Origin: Egicoccus halophilus
GTDB taxonomy: Bacteria; Actinomycetota; Nitriliruptoria; Nitriliruptorales; Nitriliruptoraceae
Assembly: GCF_004300825.1 (NCBI RefSeq)
Contig: NZ_CP036250.1
Location: 2,598,001-2,662,000 of the forward strand
DNA: 64,000 nt
Direction: 5' to 3'
Shown piece by piece: positions 42,745 to 49,772 of this stretch. Under the pieces are notes generated by a model. It ran no database searches, had not been told where the DNA came from, and saw only the letters and a program-made list of their open reading frames with translations. The position numbers and the translations under genes are program-made. Every line of letters starts with the position of its first letter. The first letter of the stretch is position 1.

Positions 42745-42927
42745 GTGCGCATCAGCGAGCAGGCGGCGGCGGTGGCCGCGATCCCTGAGGACCTGCCGGG
42801 CAATCCCTGGTCACGTGTGCTCGACCGCTTCGAGCGCCGAGCGCTGCAGCCGGCCGAACGACGCACCTCGGCGCTGGCGGACTTCTCGGTCAGCCGCAGG
42901 CCCGCCGCAGGGTCGGGAAGGGGTTGA
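42745..42927 (+). CDS. Doubtful small reading frame between korA and the M23 gene
   Basis: A 60-codon frame opening at GTG (VRISEQAAAVAAIPEDLPG) with no ribosome site. The same frame is open much farther upstream (from about 42640) and reads like protein (GAIDRLLRAAGIRPVRISEQ), with GC-rich third positions, but contains no ATG, GTG or TTG before 42745. Its 3' end overlaps the M23 gene by 38 bp on the other strand. It may be a small gene or the remnant of a longer one. This is all that I see in the 311-bp gap. Confidence 0.25.
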   Translation: MRISEQAAAVAAIPEDLPGNPWSRVLDRFERRALQPAERRTSALADFSVSRRPAAGSGRG

Positions 42928-44152
42928 CGGCCGCGCCCCCGCCCGGGTGCAGCTCGAAGTGGATGTGCGGCGTCCCGCGGGCGTTGCCGGTGTCACCGTT
43001 GGTCGCGACCTGCTGACCGGCGGTGACCCGCGCGCCGTTGGTGACGGTGTGGCGCTGCAGGTGCAGGTACCAGTAGTGGTTGCCGTCGTCGCCGTGCAGG
43101 ATCGCCCAGAGCCCGGCGCTGGGGCCGGGCGAGCGGATCGACCAGGTGCCGTCCACGATGGCGCGCACCGGGATCCCGTACGGGCCGAGGATGTCGGTAC
43201 CGCGGTGGGCACGACCACCCGAGCGCGGCGCACCCCAGGTGTCGGTGAAGTGCCGCGGGTGGTCCAACGGGCACGCCATGGCACCCGACGAGCCGCCGCC
43301 GGAGGTACCGGTGGTCGCACCACCACCGGTCGACCTGCCTGCCGCACCGCCGTCACCGCTCGCGCCCGCGTCGTGCGAACCATCCCCGGTCGGCACGTCG
43401 ACGGCCGGTGCCGCACGGCTGCGCTCGCGCTCGGCGGCGGCCTCACGTTCGCGAGCCTCACGCTCCCGCGCCTCGCGTTCGCGGCGTTCGCGCTCTTCGC
43501 GTTCCCGGCGCTCGCGTTCCAGCCGCTCGCGTTCGGCGCGCTCCTGCGCGGTCAGTTGCGCCTCCAGCCGCTGGGCCTCCTCGAGGTCCGCGGTCAGCTG
43601 CGCGGCCACCTGCTGCTGGCGGGCCTCGGCGTCGGCGAGCTCCCGGGTGCGCTCGTCGAGCCGGGTGCGCACGGCCTCGAGGCTGGTGCGGGTCGCGCCG
43701 AGCACCTGGGTGCGGGAACGGTCCCCGGCCACGAGCCGGTGCACCGTCTCGGCGCGTGACAGCGCCGCGTTCGGATCGTCGCTGGCCAGGAAGATCGCCA
43801 GTGGCTCGAGGGTCGAGCCGTGCATGTACGACTCGCGGACCCGCAGCGCGATCAGCGCCTCGAGCTCGGTGAGCTCGTCCGCCAGCGCGTCGGCCTCACG
43901 CTGCAGGCCGTCACGCTCGATCTCGAGCTCGGCGACGCGCACCTGCAACGCGTCGAGCTGCTGGGCGGCATCGGCGAGGCGCGACTCGACCGCGGCGCGG
44001 GCGGCCGCCGCCTCGCTCCGACGCTGCTGCAGTTCCTCCAACGTCTGCGCGCCGACCTGGGTCGACGAGACAGACAGCAGCAGCGCGACGACGAGGACGG
44101 CGCTGCCGCGGCGGGCACGGCGCAGCGAGGACGCGAGCGATCGGCGGGGCAC
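42890..44152 (-). CDS. Secreted M23 peptidase with coiled coil (EnvC/NlpD-like)
   Basis: A 420-residue exported protein. A signal sequence (VLVVALLLSVSSTQVGAQ) is followed by a long coiled coil (about 37-245) that ends in a highly charged Arg/Glu repeat (REREERERREREAREREAR), a Ser/Gly-rich linker, and a LytM domain (about 295-415). The zinc ligands are in HRGTDILG (HxxxD) and TPHIHFELH (HxH); HYWYLHL holds the third motif. The domain is therefore expected to be active and to cut peptidoglycan cross-links at the cell surface. GTG start with AAGGGA 5 nt upstream. Similar proteins act in cell separation. Confidence 0.9.
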   Translation of the reverse strand: MPRRSLASSLRRARRGSAVLVVALLLSVSSTQVGAQTLEELQQRRSEAAAARAAVESRLADAAQQLDALQVRVAELEIERDGLQREADALADELTELEALIALRVRESYMHGSTLEPLAIFLASDDPNAALSRAETVHRLVAGDRSRTQVLGATRTSLEAVRTRLDERTRELADAEARQQQVAAQLTADLEEAQRLEAQLTAQERAERERLERERREREERERREREAREREAREREAAAERERSRAAPAVDVPTGDGSHDAGASGDGGAAGRSTGGGATTGTSGGGSSGAMACPLDHPRHFTDTWGAPRSGGRAHRGTDILGPYGIPVRAIVDGTWSIRSPGPSAGLWAILHGDDGNHYWYLHLQRHTVTNGARVTAGQQVATNGDTGNARGTPHIHFELHPGGGAAVNPFPTLRRACG

Positions 44153-44325: not shown

Positions 44326-44354
44326 TTGTCGGCCGCCTCCCCGCCGTTTACGGT
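44326..44354 (+). promoter_or_regulatory. Promoter of the 26-residue peptide gene
   Basis: TTGTCG (44326-44331), a 17-bp spacer, and TACGGT (44349-44354) make a good sigma-70-type promoter. Transcription would start near 44361, giving a leader of about 74 nt before the ATG. Confidence 0.55.
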
Positions 44355-44434
44355 GCTTCTCGGCCGTGAACCGCGTTCCTGCGGCAGCCGCGGCCCCGAG
44401 TGCACGAGCGAGACCGAGCGAAGGAGGTGCCCCG

Positions 44435-44515
44435 ATGACGAAGTGTGGTGATGACCTCGGTCTGATCGGTGGCGCCGCCGTGCGTCCCGCCGTGTCTGCT
44501 CGGTACGGAGTGTAG
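44435..44515 (+). CDS. 26-residue peptide of unknown function
   Basis: ATG at 44435 preceded by AAGGAGG with a 7-nt spacing, the best ribosome site in the window. The peptide starts MTKCGDDLGLIGG and ends SARYGV, with one Cys and no membrane segment. It has its own promoter and is followed 21 bp after the stop by a hairpin with a U-rich tail. This is either a free-standing small protein or a leader peptide in front of an attenuator that governs the 66-residue gene downstream. I do not recognise it. Confidence 0.55.
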   Translation: MTKCGDDLGLIGGAAVRPAVSARYGV

Positions 44516-44535
44516 GCAGCACTCCCCCAGCGCAG

Positions 44536-44558
44536 CGCCGGCGGTCTCCCCGCCGGCG
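44536..44558 (+). terminator. Intrinsic terminator after the 26-residue peptide
   Basis: CGCCGGCGG (44536-44544) pairs with CCGCCGGCG (44550-44558) around a 5-nt loop, followed by TTCTTCGTTGTC. The T-rich tail favours termination on the + strand. Confidence 0.7.
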
Positions 44559-44640
44559 TTCTTCGTTGTCGCTGGCGTCGAGAACCGGTCCGGAGGCGTC
44601 CTCGACCGATGTCAGGGTCCGAGGCAACGCCTCCGACCGC

Positions 44641-44704
44641 TGCCTCGTCTGCCCTTCGGCGGGCGATGCCCCTGCCTCGTCTGCCCTTCGGCGGGCGATG
44701 CCCC
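44641..44704. repeat. Two perfect 32-bp tandem repeats
   Basis: Positions 44641-44672 are repeated exactly as 44673-44704, and 6 further bases continue the pattern. Each unit contains a GCCC-ttcggc-GGGC mini-hairpin. It lies between the terminator of the peptide gene and the start of the 66-residue gene; no coding role is seen. Confidence 0.85.
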
Positions 44705-44742
44705 TGCCCCACCATCCCTACCACCGTGCAAGGACGTCGCTG

Positions 44743-44943
44743 ATGTTGCATCCCGGACTGACCCACACCGAAGCCGACCTGCGGATCCGCGAGGACCTGC
44801 GCGCCGCCGAGGCCCGCAGCGCGCATCCTCGACGGCCACGGCCACCTTCTCGGGTGCGTGCCGTCGTGGCGTCCCGACTGGTCCGCCTGGCGGCGCGTGT
44901 CGCCGACGAGCCGGTCGCCGTCGTCGCCCGTCGGGCGGCCTGA
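44743..44943 (+). CDS. Small basic protein, 66 residues
   Basis: ATG with AGGA 8 nt upstream. The protein begins MLHPGLTHTEADLRIREDLRA, a helical, charged N-terminus, and continues with an Arg/Ala-rich second half (VRAVVASRLVRLAARVADE). It resembles the small actinobacterial proteins starting with M-x-H-P, for which no function is known. A 16-bp hairpin follows 12 bp after the stop, so the transcript appears to end here. An upstream frame extension to 44566 crosses the tandem repeats and is unlikely. Confidence 0.6.
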   Translation: MLHPGLTHTEADLRIREDLRAAEARSAHPRRPRPPSRVRAVVASRLVRLAARVADEPVAVVARRAA

Positions 44944-44955
44944 CCACCGCTCGAC

Positions 44956-44995
44956 CCGCGAGGCCGGCCCCACGTCTGCGGGGCCGGCCTCGCGG
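44956..44995 (+). terminator. Strong hairpin terminator of the 66-residue gene
   Basis: A perfect 16-bp stem (44956-44971 with 44980-44995) and an 8-nt loop, starting 12 bp after the stop codon. It would also work on the - strand for gltB read-through. Confidence 0.75.
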
Positions 44996-45080: not shown

Positions 45081-48000
45081 TCAGTCCACGTTGGCGGCGC
45101 CGCCGGGCTCGACGGAGGCGACCCGCTCCATCTCGGTCTTCGGGGCGATCCGCCACAGCTTGGTGGCGGCCTGGTCCCAGTCGGTCAGCAGACGCTGGGC
45201 GTTGACCGAGCCGGTGAGGGTGGCGTGGCGTTCGACGAGCTCCCGGACCTGGGCGAGCTGTCCACCGTTGGGACGGTGGGCCTCGACCAGCTGCCGGTTG
45301 ACGTGCGCGAGCAGGTCGCCGGTCGTGTCGAGCACGTAGCACTCGCCGCCGCTCATGCCGGCGCCCACGTTCTGTCCGGTCGGGCCGAGCACGACGACGG
45401 TGCCGCCGGTCATGTACTCGCAGGCGTGGTCTCCGGTGCCCTCGACGACCGCCGTGGCGCCAGAGTTGCGCACGGCGAAGCGTTCGCCGGCGCGTCCGGC
45501 GACGAACAGCTCACCGCTGGTGGCGCCGTACAGGACGGTGTTGCCGACCAGCACCGGGTCGCCCGCGTCGTCGTGCGGGGCCCGGATCACCAGCCGCCCG
45601 CCCCCGAGCCCCTTGCCGACGTAGTCGTTGGCCTCGCCGTCGAGGACGAGCTCGACGCCGCGGCTGACGAAGGCCCCGAAGGACTGTCCGGCCGAGCCGG
45701 TGAACCGCAACCGGGCGAGCCCGTGCGGCTCGGCGTCGCCGAACTCGAGCCCGATGGCGCCACCGATACGGGCACCGACGGTGCGGTCGGCATTGGCGAT
45801 GTCGTAGGTGAACTCGGTGATGCCGCCGAGGAACACCGTCTCGAGCGCGTCGTCGAACGCCCGGTCACCGAGTTCGCTGCGCGGGTCCTGGATCGGCTCG
45901 CGCGAGACGAACGAGCGGGCGCCGATGCCGGGCTCGACGAGCAGCGGGGTGACGTCGAGCCGGGCCGCACGGCCCTCGAGGTCATCGCGGGGTTCGAGCA
46001 GGTCGACCCGGCCGACCGCGTCGTCGAGGCTGCGCAGCCCGAGCTCGGCGAGCAGGTGGCGGACCTCCTCGGCGACCATCAGCAGGTAGCCGGCGACCAT
46101 CTCGGGCGTGCCGACGAACTTGTCGCGCAGGTCGCGGCGCTGGGTGGCGATGCCGACCGGGCAGGTGTCGCGGTGGCAGGCGCGGGCCATGATGCAGCCC
46201 TCGGCGAACAGTGCGGCGGTGCCGAACGAGTACTCGTCGGCGCCGAGCAGCGCGGCCTTGAGGATGTCGTGGCCGGTCTTGAACCCGCCGTCGACGCGGA
46301 GCCTCACCCGCCCGCGCAGCCCGTTCTCGCGCAGGGTGCGCTGGACCTCGGCCAGCCCGAGTTCCCACGGCATGCCGGCGTGCTGGATCGAGGACAGCGG
46401 CGAGGCGCCGGTGCCGCCGTCGTTGCCGGAGATGTGGATCGAGTCGGCCAGTGCCTTGACCACGCCGGCGGCGATGGTGCCGATGCCAGCTGCGGCCACC
46501 AGCTTGACGTCGACCTGCGCCTGCGGGTTGACCTGCTTGAGGTCGAAGATCAGCTGTGCGAGGTCCTCGATCGAGTAGATGTCGTGGTGCGGCGGCGGGC
46601 TGATCAGCGTCACGCCGGGCGTGGTGTGCCGCAGCCGGGCGATCTCGTCGGTCACCTTGTGGCCGGGGATCTGGCCGCCCTCGCCGGGCTTGGAGCCCTG
46701 CGCCATCTTGATCTGGAGCAGCTCGGCGTTGGCGAGGTAGGCCGGCGTCACGCCGAAGCGTCCGGAGGCGACCTGCTTGATGCGGCAGTCGAGGTCGCGC
46801 TCGCTGCCGCGGGTGGCGAAGCGGGCCGGGTCCTCGCCGCCCTCACCGGAGTTGGCCCGACCGCCGATCAGGTTGAGTGCGGCCGCCAACGTCTCGTGAG
46901 CCTCGGCCGACAGCGCACCGTGCGACATCGCTCCGGTCGAGAACCGGCGGGCGATGGCGGACGCCGGCTCGACTTCGTCGAGGGGGACGGCGCCACCGGT
47001 CGCCCGCGGACGCAGGAAGTCGCGTGGGTAGGCGACCGGCCGCGATCGCACGGTCTCGGAGAACACCTGGTAGAGGTCGTAACGCCCCTGTTCGGACGCC
47101 GCCCGCAACAGCTGGGCGGTGCGACCGTCGACCTGGTCGACGTCGGAGCCGGGCAGCAGGTCGTCGGGGGCGTCGAGGGCGAACGGGTCGGTCCTGGGAC
47201 GGCGGCCGAGCCCGAGCGTGTCGTGCAGCGCGTCGATGACCGGCTTGTTCATGTCGTGGTACTCGCCGCCCTTGCGCCACTTGATGATGCCGGGGCTGGG
47301 CAGGTCGGGCAGGGCGTCGTCGGCGGCGGCGAACGCCTCGGCGTGCTGGGCCAGGACGTCCTCGGCGAGGTCGTCGAGCGTCAGGCCACCGAGCGTCGAC
47401 ACGGTGCCGGTGAAACAGCGTTCGACGACGTCGGGTCCGAGCCCGAGCGCCTCGAAGATCTGGGCGCTGCGGTAGCTGTCGAGGACGGAGATGCCCATCT
47501 TGGACATGATCTTGAGCACGCCGTCCTCGACGGCGTTGCGGTAGCGCTCCTGGGCGACGTTGGCGGTCGGGCTGTCGCCACCGATGCGGCCCTCGTCGGC
47601 GAGGTCGGCGATGGTCTGCAGCACCAGCCGCGGCACGATCGCGTCGGCGCCGTAGCCCAGCAGCGTCGCGGCGTCGTGGGTCTCGCGGGCCTCGTCGGTC
47701 TCGGCGACGATCGAGGTACGCGTGCGCAGACCTTCGTCGAGCAGGTGCTGGTGCACGGCACCGACGGCGAGCAGGATCGGCACGCGGCAGTGGTCCTCGT
47801 CGACCCCGGCGTCGGAGACGACGACGATGCCGGCACCGGCGCGTACGTGGGCGGCGGCCTCCCGGCCGAGGCGGTCGAGCGCATCACGCAGCCCGGCCGG
47901 GCCGTCGGCAACGGGGAAGGTCGCGTCGACCGCCATCACCGCGAACGGGATCTCGGGGTCGAGCACGAGACGCTGCAGGCCCTCCGGGTACAGGAAGAAC

Positions 48001-49772
48001 GACCCGAGCTCGAGCAGCCGCGCCGCCTCGGGACGCTCGGTCAGGATCGGTTCGCGCGGCCCGAGCAGGGTCCGCAGGCTCATCACCTGCGACTCGCGGT
48101 AGTGGTCGATGGGTGGGTTGGTGACCTGGGCGAAGCGTTGCTTGAGGTAGTGCGAGACGGGCCGGCGCACCTGGCTGAGCGGCTCGATCGGGGTGTCGTC
48201 CCCCATCGAGGAGATCGTCTCCTTGCCCTGCGTCGCCATCGGCCGCAGGATCGAGATGACCTCCTCCTTGGTGAACCCGAACGCGAGCTGGCGTCGTTGC
48301 AGGTCCGCCGGCGCGCTCTCGACCGGCAGGCCCGCCCGCACCGGCTGCAGGTGCTGGTGCAGCCACTCGCCGTACGGCTGGCGCCGGGCGAGCTGCAGCT
48401 TGATCTCGAGGTCCTCCTGCAGGCCGCCCTCGTCGGGGTCGACGCACAGCATCTGGCCGGGGCCGAGGCGTTCCCGACGGATGGTGCCGTGCTCGGCGGA
48501 CGGCGTGCTGGTGGGCACCGCGCCGACCTCGGAGGAGGCGACGACGGTGCCGTCCTCGCACACGTGGTAGCGCAGCGGGCGCAGGCCGTTGCGGTCGAGC
48601 GTCGCACCGACGCGACGCCCGTCGGTGAAGATCAGTCCGGCCGGGCCGTCCCACGGCTCGACCAGGCCGGCGTGGTAGCGGTAGAAGTCGCGGACGTTCG
48701 GGTCGAGGTCACGGGCGCCCTCCCACACCTGCGGGACCAGCATCGCCTGGGCGTGGCGGACGTCACGACCGCCGCGGACCAGCAGTTCGAGTCCCTGGTC
48801 GAGCTTGGCGGAGTCGGACTGGTCGTCGTCGACCACCGGGACGAGCAGCGAGGGCTCGACCCAGTCGCTGCCGTCGACCGAGAGCGACCCCTCGACGAGC
48901 TGTCCCTCACGGGCGCGCATCAGGTTGCCGTTGCCGGCGATGGTGTTGATCTCGCCGTTGTGGCACAGCATCCGGAACGGCTGCGCCCGCTCCCAGCTCG
49001 GGGTGGTGTTGGTCGAGAACCTGGAGTGGAAGATCGCGAGCGCGCTGGTGAAGCGCTCGTCGTCGAGGTCCGGGTAGAAGGTGCCGAGCTGGTCGGCGTT
49101 GGCCATGCCCTTGTAGGTCACGGTGACGAACGAGCACGAGGCGGCGTAGAAGCGTGCCCCGGCGGCCTCGCAGTTCTTGCGGGCCCGGCGGCGCAGGCGG
49201 TAGGCGACCCGTTCGGCCTGGCGGTCGTCGACGGGGCCGTCCTCGCCGTCGGGGCGCACGAACAGCGCCTGCTCGAGAGCCGGCTGCACGGCGGCGGCCA
49301 TCTCGCCGATGACCGACGGGTCCGAGGGCACCTCGCGCCAGCCGACGAAGCGCACGCCCTCGGCGGCGCAGGCCTTCTCGAAGGCGCCACGGGCGGTCGC
49401 CCGGTCCTGCTCGGCCTCGGACGTCGTGCCGGGCGTGAGGAACAGGAACGCGACCCCGAGCGCCTCGGCGGGGACGTCGGCCGCGCCGAGCTCCGCCGCC
49501 CAGGTGGCGACGAGGTCGCGCGGGATCTGCGTCAGGATGCCGGCACCGTCCCCGGACAGCCCGTCGGCGGCCACCGCTCCGCGGTGCTCGACGCCGTACA
49601 GGCCCTGCAGCGCCTTGGCGACGATGCTGCGCCGCGGTCGACCGTCGACGTGCGCCACGAACCCGATCCCGCAGGCGTCGCGTTCACCACGCGGGTCGAA
49701 CGCGGTGGCGCGGGCGGCGCGACGCGCCGCCGGCGAGGCGTGGTCGGGCGGAGGGAGGTCGACGGAGGTCAC
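45081..49772 (-). CDS. gltB: Glutamate synthase (NADPH) large subunit
   Basis: A 1563-residue enzyme that turns glutamine and 2-oxoglutarate into two glutamates. The class II amidotransferase nucleophile is Cys34 (DACGIGFVA), so about 33 residues would be removed. Then come the central domain, the FMN/synthase domain (GEGGEDPARFATRGSERD; KPGEGGQIPGHKV), the 3Fe-4S cysteines in CHRDTCPVGIATQ, and the C-terminal beta-helix domain with GATSGELFVAGRAGERFAVRNSGA. The GTG start follows GAAGG by 7 nt. The partner gltD is not in the window, though it usually follows gltB. Its leader holds an intrinsic terminator (see 49887-49921). Confidence 0.96.
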   Translation of the reverse strand: MTSVDLPPPDHASPAARRAARATAFDPRGERDACGIGFVAHVDGRPRRSIVAKALQGLYGVEHRGAVAADGLSGDGAGILTQIPRDLVATWAAELGAADVPAEALGVAFLFLTPGTTSEAEQDRATARGAFEKACAAEGVRFVGWREVPSDPSVIGEMAAAVQPALEQALFVRPDGEDGPVDDRQAERVAYRLRRRARKNCEAAGARFYAASCSFVTVTYKGMANADQLGTFYPDLDDERFTSALAIFHSRFSTNTTPSWERAQPFRMLCHNGEINTIAGNGNLMRAREGQLVEGSLSVDGSDWVEPSLLVPVVDDDQSDSAKLDQGLELLVRGGRDVRHAQAMLVPQVWEGARDLDPNVRDFYRYHAGLVEPWDGPAGLIFTDGRRVGATLDRNGLRPLRYHVCEDGTVVASSEVGAVPTSTPSAEHGTIRRERLGPGQMLCVDPDEGGLQEDLEIKLQLARRQPYGEWLHQHLQPVRAGLPVESAPADLQRRQLAFGFTKEEVISILRPMATQGKETISSMGDDTPIEPLSQVRRPVSHYLKQRFAQVTNPPIDHYRESQVMSLRTLLGPREPILTERPEAARLLELGSFFLYPEGLQRLVLDPEIPFAVMAVDATFPVADGPAGLRDALDRLGREAAAHVRAGAGIVVVSDAGVDEDHCRVPILLAVGAVHQHLLDEGLRTRTSIVAETDEARETHDAATLLGYGADAIVPRLVLQTIADLADEGRIGGDSPTANVAQERYRNAVEDGVLKIMSKMGISVLDSYRSAQIFEALGLGPDVVERCFTGTVSTLGGLTLDDLAEDVLAQHAEAFAAADDALPDLPSPGIIKWRKGGEYHDMNKPVIDALHDTLGLGRRPRTDPFALDAPDDLLPGSDVDQVDGRTAQLLRAASEQGRYDLYQVFSETVRSRPVAYPRDFLRPRATGGAVPLDEVEPASAIARRFSTGAMSHGALSAEAHETLAAALNLIGGRANSGEGGEDPARFATRGSERDLDCRIKQVASGRFGVTPAYLANAELLQIKMAQGSKPGEGGQIPGHKVTDEIARLRHTTPGVTLISPPPHHDIYSIEDLAQLIFDLKQVNPQAQVDVKLVAAAGIGTIAAGVVKALADSIHISGNDGGTGASPLSSIQHAGMPWELGLAEVQRTLRENGLRGRVRLRVDGGFKTGHDILKAALLGADEYSFGTAALFAEGCIMARACHRDTCPVGIATQRRDLRDKFVGTPEMVAGYLLMVAEEVRHLLAELGLRSLDDAVGRVDLLEPRDDLEGRAARLDVTPLLVEPGIGARSFVSREPIQDPRSELGDRAFDDALETVFLGGITEFTYDIANADRTVGARIGGAIGLEFGDAEPHGLARLRFTGSAGQSFGAFVSRGVELVLDGEANDYVGKGLGGGRLVIRAPHDDAGDPVLVGNTVLYGATSGELFVAGRAGERFAVRNSGATAVVEGTGDHACEYMTGGTVVVLGPTGQNVGAGMSGGECYVLDTTGDLLAHVNRQLVEAHRPNGGQLAQVRELVERHATLTGSVNAQRLLTDWDQAATKLWRIAPKTEMERVASVEPGGAANVD

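Follow-up and report, generated by a model that had tools for sequence, protein, structure and literature searches.

In Egicoccus halophilus, a promoter, a leader ORF of 26 codons, an intrinsic terminator and a gene for a 66-amino-acid arginine-rich protein are predicted to form one unit, in which the small gene would be controlled by translation-dependent transcription attenuation. Judged from the sequence, we give this reading a probability of about 70%. The complete order of elements was found in 14 related genomes, and the leader appears to be conserved as an ORF and free of selection on its peptide. In each unit the terminator is predicted to compete with a second, mutually exclusive pairing.

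The leader unit and its surroundings

The window (the whole stretch of 64,000 nucleotides that was analysed) carries the unit between a divergent M23 peptidase gene (42890-44152) and a convergent glutamate-synthase-like (gltB-like) gene (45081-49772, called by translation), which lies beyond the gene for the 66-amino-acid protein. The following features were located:

44326..44354, + strand: promoter, -35 box TTGTCG (44326-44331), 17-nt spacer, -10 box TACGGT (44349-44354), by pattern match
44421..44429, + strand: Shine-Dalgarno sequence AAGGAGGTG of the leader ORF, by pattern count in the window and in shuffles
44435..44515, + strand: leader ORF of 26 codons, MTKCGDDLGLIGGAAVRPAVSARYGV, stop codon TAG at 44513-44515, by ORF translation and retention in relatives
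44487..44503, + strand: putative antiterminator 5' strand (A), CCGCCGTGTCTGCTCGG, within the leader ORF, by predicted pairing
44507..44525, + strand: hairpin GGAGTGT-AGGCA-GCACTCC across the leader stop codon, by folding
44527..44544, + strand: putative antiterminator 3' strand (A'), spacer and terminator 5' arm, by predicted pairing
44534..44560, + strand: intrinsic terminator hairpin AGCGCCGGCGG-TCTCC-CCGCCGGCGTT with tail CTTCGTT, by terminator scan and folding
44743..44943, + strand: proposed regulated gene for the 66-amino-acid arginine-rich protein, by homologues, codon-position differences and structure model
44958..44993, + strand: GC-rich long inverted repeat between the small gene and the gltB-like gene, by sequence

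The initial annotation had described a sigma-70-like promoter, the best ribosome site of the window, a frame of 26 residues and a U-tailed hairpin. The promoter boxes are present; the pattern TTGNCN-N17-TANNNT matches twice in the 64 kb, this site included, where 0.24 matches are expected. A scan with a stricter sigma-70 consensus returned no promoter site. The window has a single AAGGAGGTG-N5-ATG motif, which is never seen in shuffled sequences, and the frame was confirmed at 44435-44515. The hairpin at 44534-44560 was likewise recovered, with a tail (TTCTTCGTT) that is weak in uridines. It is the sole terminator-like site between 43900 and 45200, with 0.2 expected per 1.3 kb, and the predicted fold of 44507-44575 has an energy of -41.6 kcal/mol (z = -5.7). 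The U-tail is also poor in most units of the relatives, where tails mostly read TCGT or TCGTCGT in place of a U-run (alignment A5, columns 215-224); these tails may be typical of the lineage or a conserved element.

The hairpin across the stop codon showed no excess over shuffles when contiguous stems were counted (Fisher p 0.12). Local folding around the stop, summed over 11 units, exceeded that of codon shuffles (1 of 500 as strong) and was weak in single units. On these two results the stop-codon hairpin was given a secondary role. RNAalifold, applied to a MAFFT alignment of the units, recovered the terminator as its sole structure, since the leader-ORF portions fail to align. Covariance models from Rfam gave no match at gathering score within the window, and a tRNA search of the window was also empty.

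The stretch from terminator to small gene contains a 32-bp tandem repeat, CTGCCTCGTCTGCCCTTCGGCGGGCGATGCCC, with 2.2 copies at 100% match (44640-44708). It accounts in part for the larger size of this gap, 183 nt compared with 35-137 nt in the relatives. The inverted repeat at 44958-44993 has no U-run and is possibly a terminator shared by the small gene and the gltB-like gene.

The unit in related genomes

Units were located by reading upstream of the small-protein genes and of the orthologous M23 gene. Promoter, Shine-Dalgarno sequence, leader ORF, terminator and small arginine-rich protein gene were found in this order in the window and in 13 further genomes, together covering seven genera of the family (G000, G001, G002, G003, G027, G026, G006, G030, G010, G005, G017, G007, G020 and G008). 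Several of these genomes are incomplete, and since they are related to each other the counts are not independent. Of 35 family genomes, 21 gave no leader unit in the same searches. In G001 the leader and the small gene are split by a contig break, with the terminator sequence present at both contig ends.

The leader ORF varies from 24 to 42 codons in length and is preceded by GGAGG or a close variant in all 14 units. A simple pattern search placed a -35/-10-like pair with 16-18 nt spacing upstream of 13 leader ORFs. In every unit about 20-30 nt lie between the leader stop and the start of the terminator 5' arm. In G005 and G017 the whole unit is found at a different chromosomal site, after an acyl-CoA dehydrogenase-like gene, which indicates that its parts travel together.

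The distance from the terminator to the second ATG bears on whether the elements are coupled at all. If they were not, a short ORF would simply be followed by a constitutive terminator, the small gene would be transcribed from its own promoter and the pairings described below would be a by-product of GC-rich RNA. The 183-nt gap in G000 could hold such a promoter, and the pairing of the window's unit taken singly is not significant. However, the gap is 35 nt in G020 and 44 nt in G008, which leaves no space for a promoter with its 5' UTR, and the small gene of these two genomes would thus depend on read-through. The intact unit at a second chromosomal place and a pairing stronger than that of real gene ends argue in the same direction, and we regard the absence of regulation as very improbable. 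The coupling of leader and terminator to the gene at 44743, one of two options in the initial annotation, is thus the one borne out by the 14 genomes, by the pairing present in all of them and by the lack of promoter room in two.

The leader peptide

Differences at the first, second and third codon positions of the leader ORF were counted as 47/48/56 within the genus and as 9/10/9 and 10/14/14 in two other genera. For the small gene of the matching genomes the counts were 50/73/128, 11/15/32 and 16/14/33. The third-position excess in the small gene and the even spread in the leader indicate that the former is under coding selection and the peptide is not. A search with the peptide in 60 relatives gave no match at E < 0.01 beyond its own genome, owing to this divergence; within the genus a loose pattern, [IL]GG..A..R[PS][AV]V.AR.GV, can be written. 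In the comparison of the frame across relatives, as suggested by the initial annotation, frame and start are kept in 14 genomes, without third-position bias. The leader seems to be conserved as an ORF and not for its peptide product, and appears to act in cis.

The composition of the 14 peptides differs from that of the long ORFs of the sampled relatives. Threonine makes up 12% against 6%, glutamine is depleted, and glutamate occurs once in about 420 residues (5.7% expected). Twelve cysteines were counted (2.9% against 0.8%, p 2e-4), distributed over 11 peptides at no fixed place, 4 to 23 codons ahead of the stop; glycine is found in all 14. The switch alone is insufficient to explain this skew.

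Two other functions of the leader were weighed against these data. The peptide could itself be the functional product, its mRNA ended or dampened by the terminator, with constant read-through yielding smaller amounts of the 66-amino-acid partner. Such a role would agree with the strong promoter and Shine-Dalgarno sequence, a frame kept in 14 genomes, the C-terminal motif RP[AV]V.AR.GV within the genus and the skewed composition. But the peptide can barely be aligned across genera, its third positions show no excess, and the codons for RP..AR overlap the antiterminator strand. We therefore consider it unlikely, as is the stand-alone, unannotated small protein of the initial annotation, which the missing third-position bias and the little conservation beyond the genus count against.

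Alternatively, the unit could be an attenuator that responds to a particular amino acid, like those of trp and ilv, in which stalling at particular codons, most plausibly those for cysteine or glycine, favours the antiterminator. The architecture is identical, and both the enrichment of cysteine, present in 11 of 14 peptides, and the ubiquity of glycine fit. Cysteine, however, is variable in position and missing from three peptides, glycine codons are expected anyway in GC-rich RNA, and the target does not resemble a biosynthetic or transport gene. No conserved run of control codons was found across the 14 peptides, in agreement with the initial annotation, which had seen no codon run hinting at a sensed amino acid. 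Specific sensing of this kind is accordingly judged improbable.

Antiterminator pairing

When the RNA was folded without the terminator 3' arm, the 5' arm paired with a segment late in the ORF and enclosed the stop region, usually as a small hairpin. The mean pairing probability between 5' arm and ORF was 0.78-0.99 in all 14 units, whereas 26 ordinary genes that end ahead of a terminator gave 0.43 ± 0.27 (p = 2.4e-7); the corresponding fold z values were -1.6 for the units and -0.1 for the gene ends (p = 0.001). These controls were genes from the same genomes, with the stop codon similarly distant from a terminator hairpin and known units excluded. An earlier control of nine gene ends showed no difference and was probably contaminated by units, with open frames entering leaders; the set grew to 26 after removal of the units and addition of 800 kb of sequence.

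The leader ORFs were also compared with codon shuffles in which the first eight codons were held fixed. The summed pairing probability was 12.1, against 9.1 ± 0.8 after shuffling (0 of 150 as high), and the summed fold energy -733.9, against -657.6 ± 12.3 (0 of 300). The significance of the antiterminator holds at the level of the set, the window's unit alone giving p 0.13 for pairing and p 0.75 for energy.

Genus g6 (G020 and G008) has a distinct terminator arm, GAGAGACGGCGG, to which its ORFs are matched: their mean z was -3.2 with their own arm, against -0.3 and -0.4 with the other arms. The ORF of G020 contains CCGCCGTCCTCTC, and the terminator 3' arm reads CCGCCGTCTCTC, so that the ORF contains the 3' arm sequence almost unchanged. 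In the common terminator class the specificity for the own arm is weak (z -0.5), and GC-rich RNA pairs readily. In the full-length RNA the terminator is more stable by 2-14 kcal/mol. The antiterminator could thus win only while the RNA is being transcribed, as attenuators require.

A search for a trp-like protector (1:2) hairpin, with which termination would occur even in the absence of translation, gave no support for one, the self-folding of the ORFs being no better than that of codon shuffles (mean z 0.0).

Proposed switch

Three RNA elements would compete: A (44487-44503), A' (44527-44544) and the terminator 3' arm. A ribosome that translates to the leader stop would mask A and melt the hairpin at the stop codon, leaving the 5' arm unpaired; the terminator would then form and transcription would end ahead of the small gene. 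After failed initiation or early stalling, A would pair with A' around the stop hairpin and block the terminator, allowing RNA polymerase to read through into the small gene. Transcription of the unit, read-through, the direction of control and its signal are what we infer from the conserved arrangement and the predicted pairings. The signal is probably the general status of translation, such as the presence of a drug or a shortage of ribosomes or charged tRNA, and not a single amino acid, since neither the peptide nor its codons are conserved.

By its sequence features the unit fits the known class of leader-ORF (ribosome-mediated) transcription attenuators, with a short ORF that has a promoter and ribosome site, an intrinsic terminator with a weak U-tail and a predicted antiterminator that overlaps both the ORF and the terminator 5' arm. 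A further-reaching and rather doubtful proposal is that the unit is a lineage-specific sensor of translation status independent of the peptide, in which the antiterminator around the leader stop reports the completion of a dummy ORF. When translation fails, it might then release small arginine-rich proteins of a new family, which would act on ribosomes or RNA.

The small arginine-rich protein

The 66-amino-acid protein is present in four genomes of the genus with 69-77% identity, and more distant homologues occur in other genera; a contig scan with the protein returned a single relative, a metagenome-assembled genome. Its structure model consists of two helices (residues 4-27 and 37-55) with an RPRPPS turn between them (mean pLDDT 82, pTM 0.36), and it points to no particular function. 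A comparison with Pfam and NCBIfam gave no family at E ≤ 1, DUF1127 (PF06568) included.

Possible distant homologues were seen as weak matches in another family of the same class (L048 and L050). They carry no leader ORF and lie directly 3' of a gene for an ArsR-type-HTH-like regulator, upstream of position 1501 (on the - strand in L050). A second copy of an RPRPP small protein was observed in G017 on contig C211 (L084, 1501-1665), downstream of an AraC-like frame and without a recognisable leader.

Comparison with known systems

In leader-peptide attenuators, such as those of trp, of ilvBNC in Corynebacterium (PMC11857589) and of ilvB1NC in Mycobacterium tuberculosis (PMC13236596), the position of the ribosome selects between terminator and antiterminator. 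The present unit resembles them in its mutually exclusive terminator and antiterminator and in the predicted masking of the antiterminator strand by a ribosome at the stop codon. It differs in that no run of control codons and no biosynthetic target were seen and the leader peptide is not conserved.

That uORF attenuators function in Actinomycetota is known from whiB7 and ilvB1 of mycobacteria (PMC13236596). In the actinobacterial whiB7/wblC systems, as they are cited in that paper, ribosome stalling induces the downstream gene. To the extent of that citation, the likeness is one of architecture, a uORF followed by a terminator, and the target differs in being a WhiB transcription factor.

The nearest published case found is duf1127_1 of Sinorhizobium meliloti, reported in 2025 (PMC12218461), where an unannotated uORF is associated with premature termination before a gene for a small arginine-rich protein. 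Termination requires translation of the uORF, the second half of the peptide being irrelevant, and it is relieved when tetracycline is added or the uORF is no longer translated; the element was proposed to sense how efficiently translation proceeds and whether ribosomes are available. The logic of uORF, termination and small arginine-rich target is the same as proposed here. In duf1127_1, however, termination is proposed to depend on Rho, with a C-rich element near the start of the uORF, whereas the present unit has an intrinsic terminator and, where the ORF ends, a putative antiterminator. The host belongs to a different phylum, and the 66-amino-acid protein, having no Pfam match, is not a DUF1127 protein by that test. 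The unit would be a leader-ORF attenuator from a little-studied actinobacterial lineage whose target is small and arginine-rich, a parallel to the duf1127 switch of S. meliloti. If both switches sense the failure of translation and release small arginine-rich proteins, a convergent stress circuit is suggested, and the small protein would gain a testable role.
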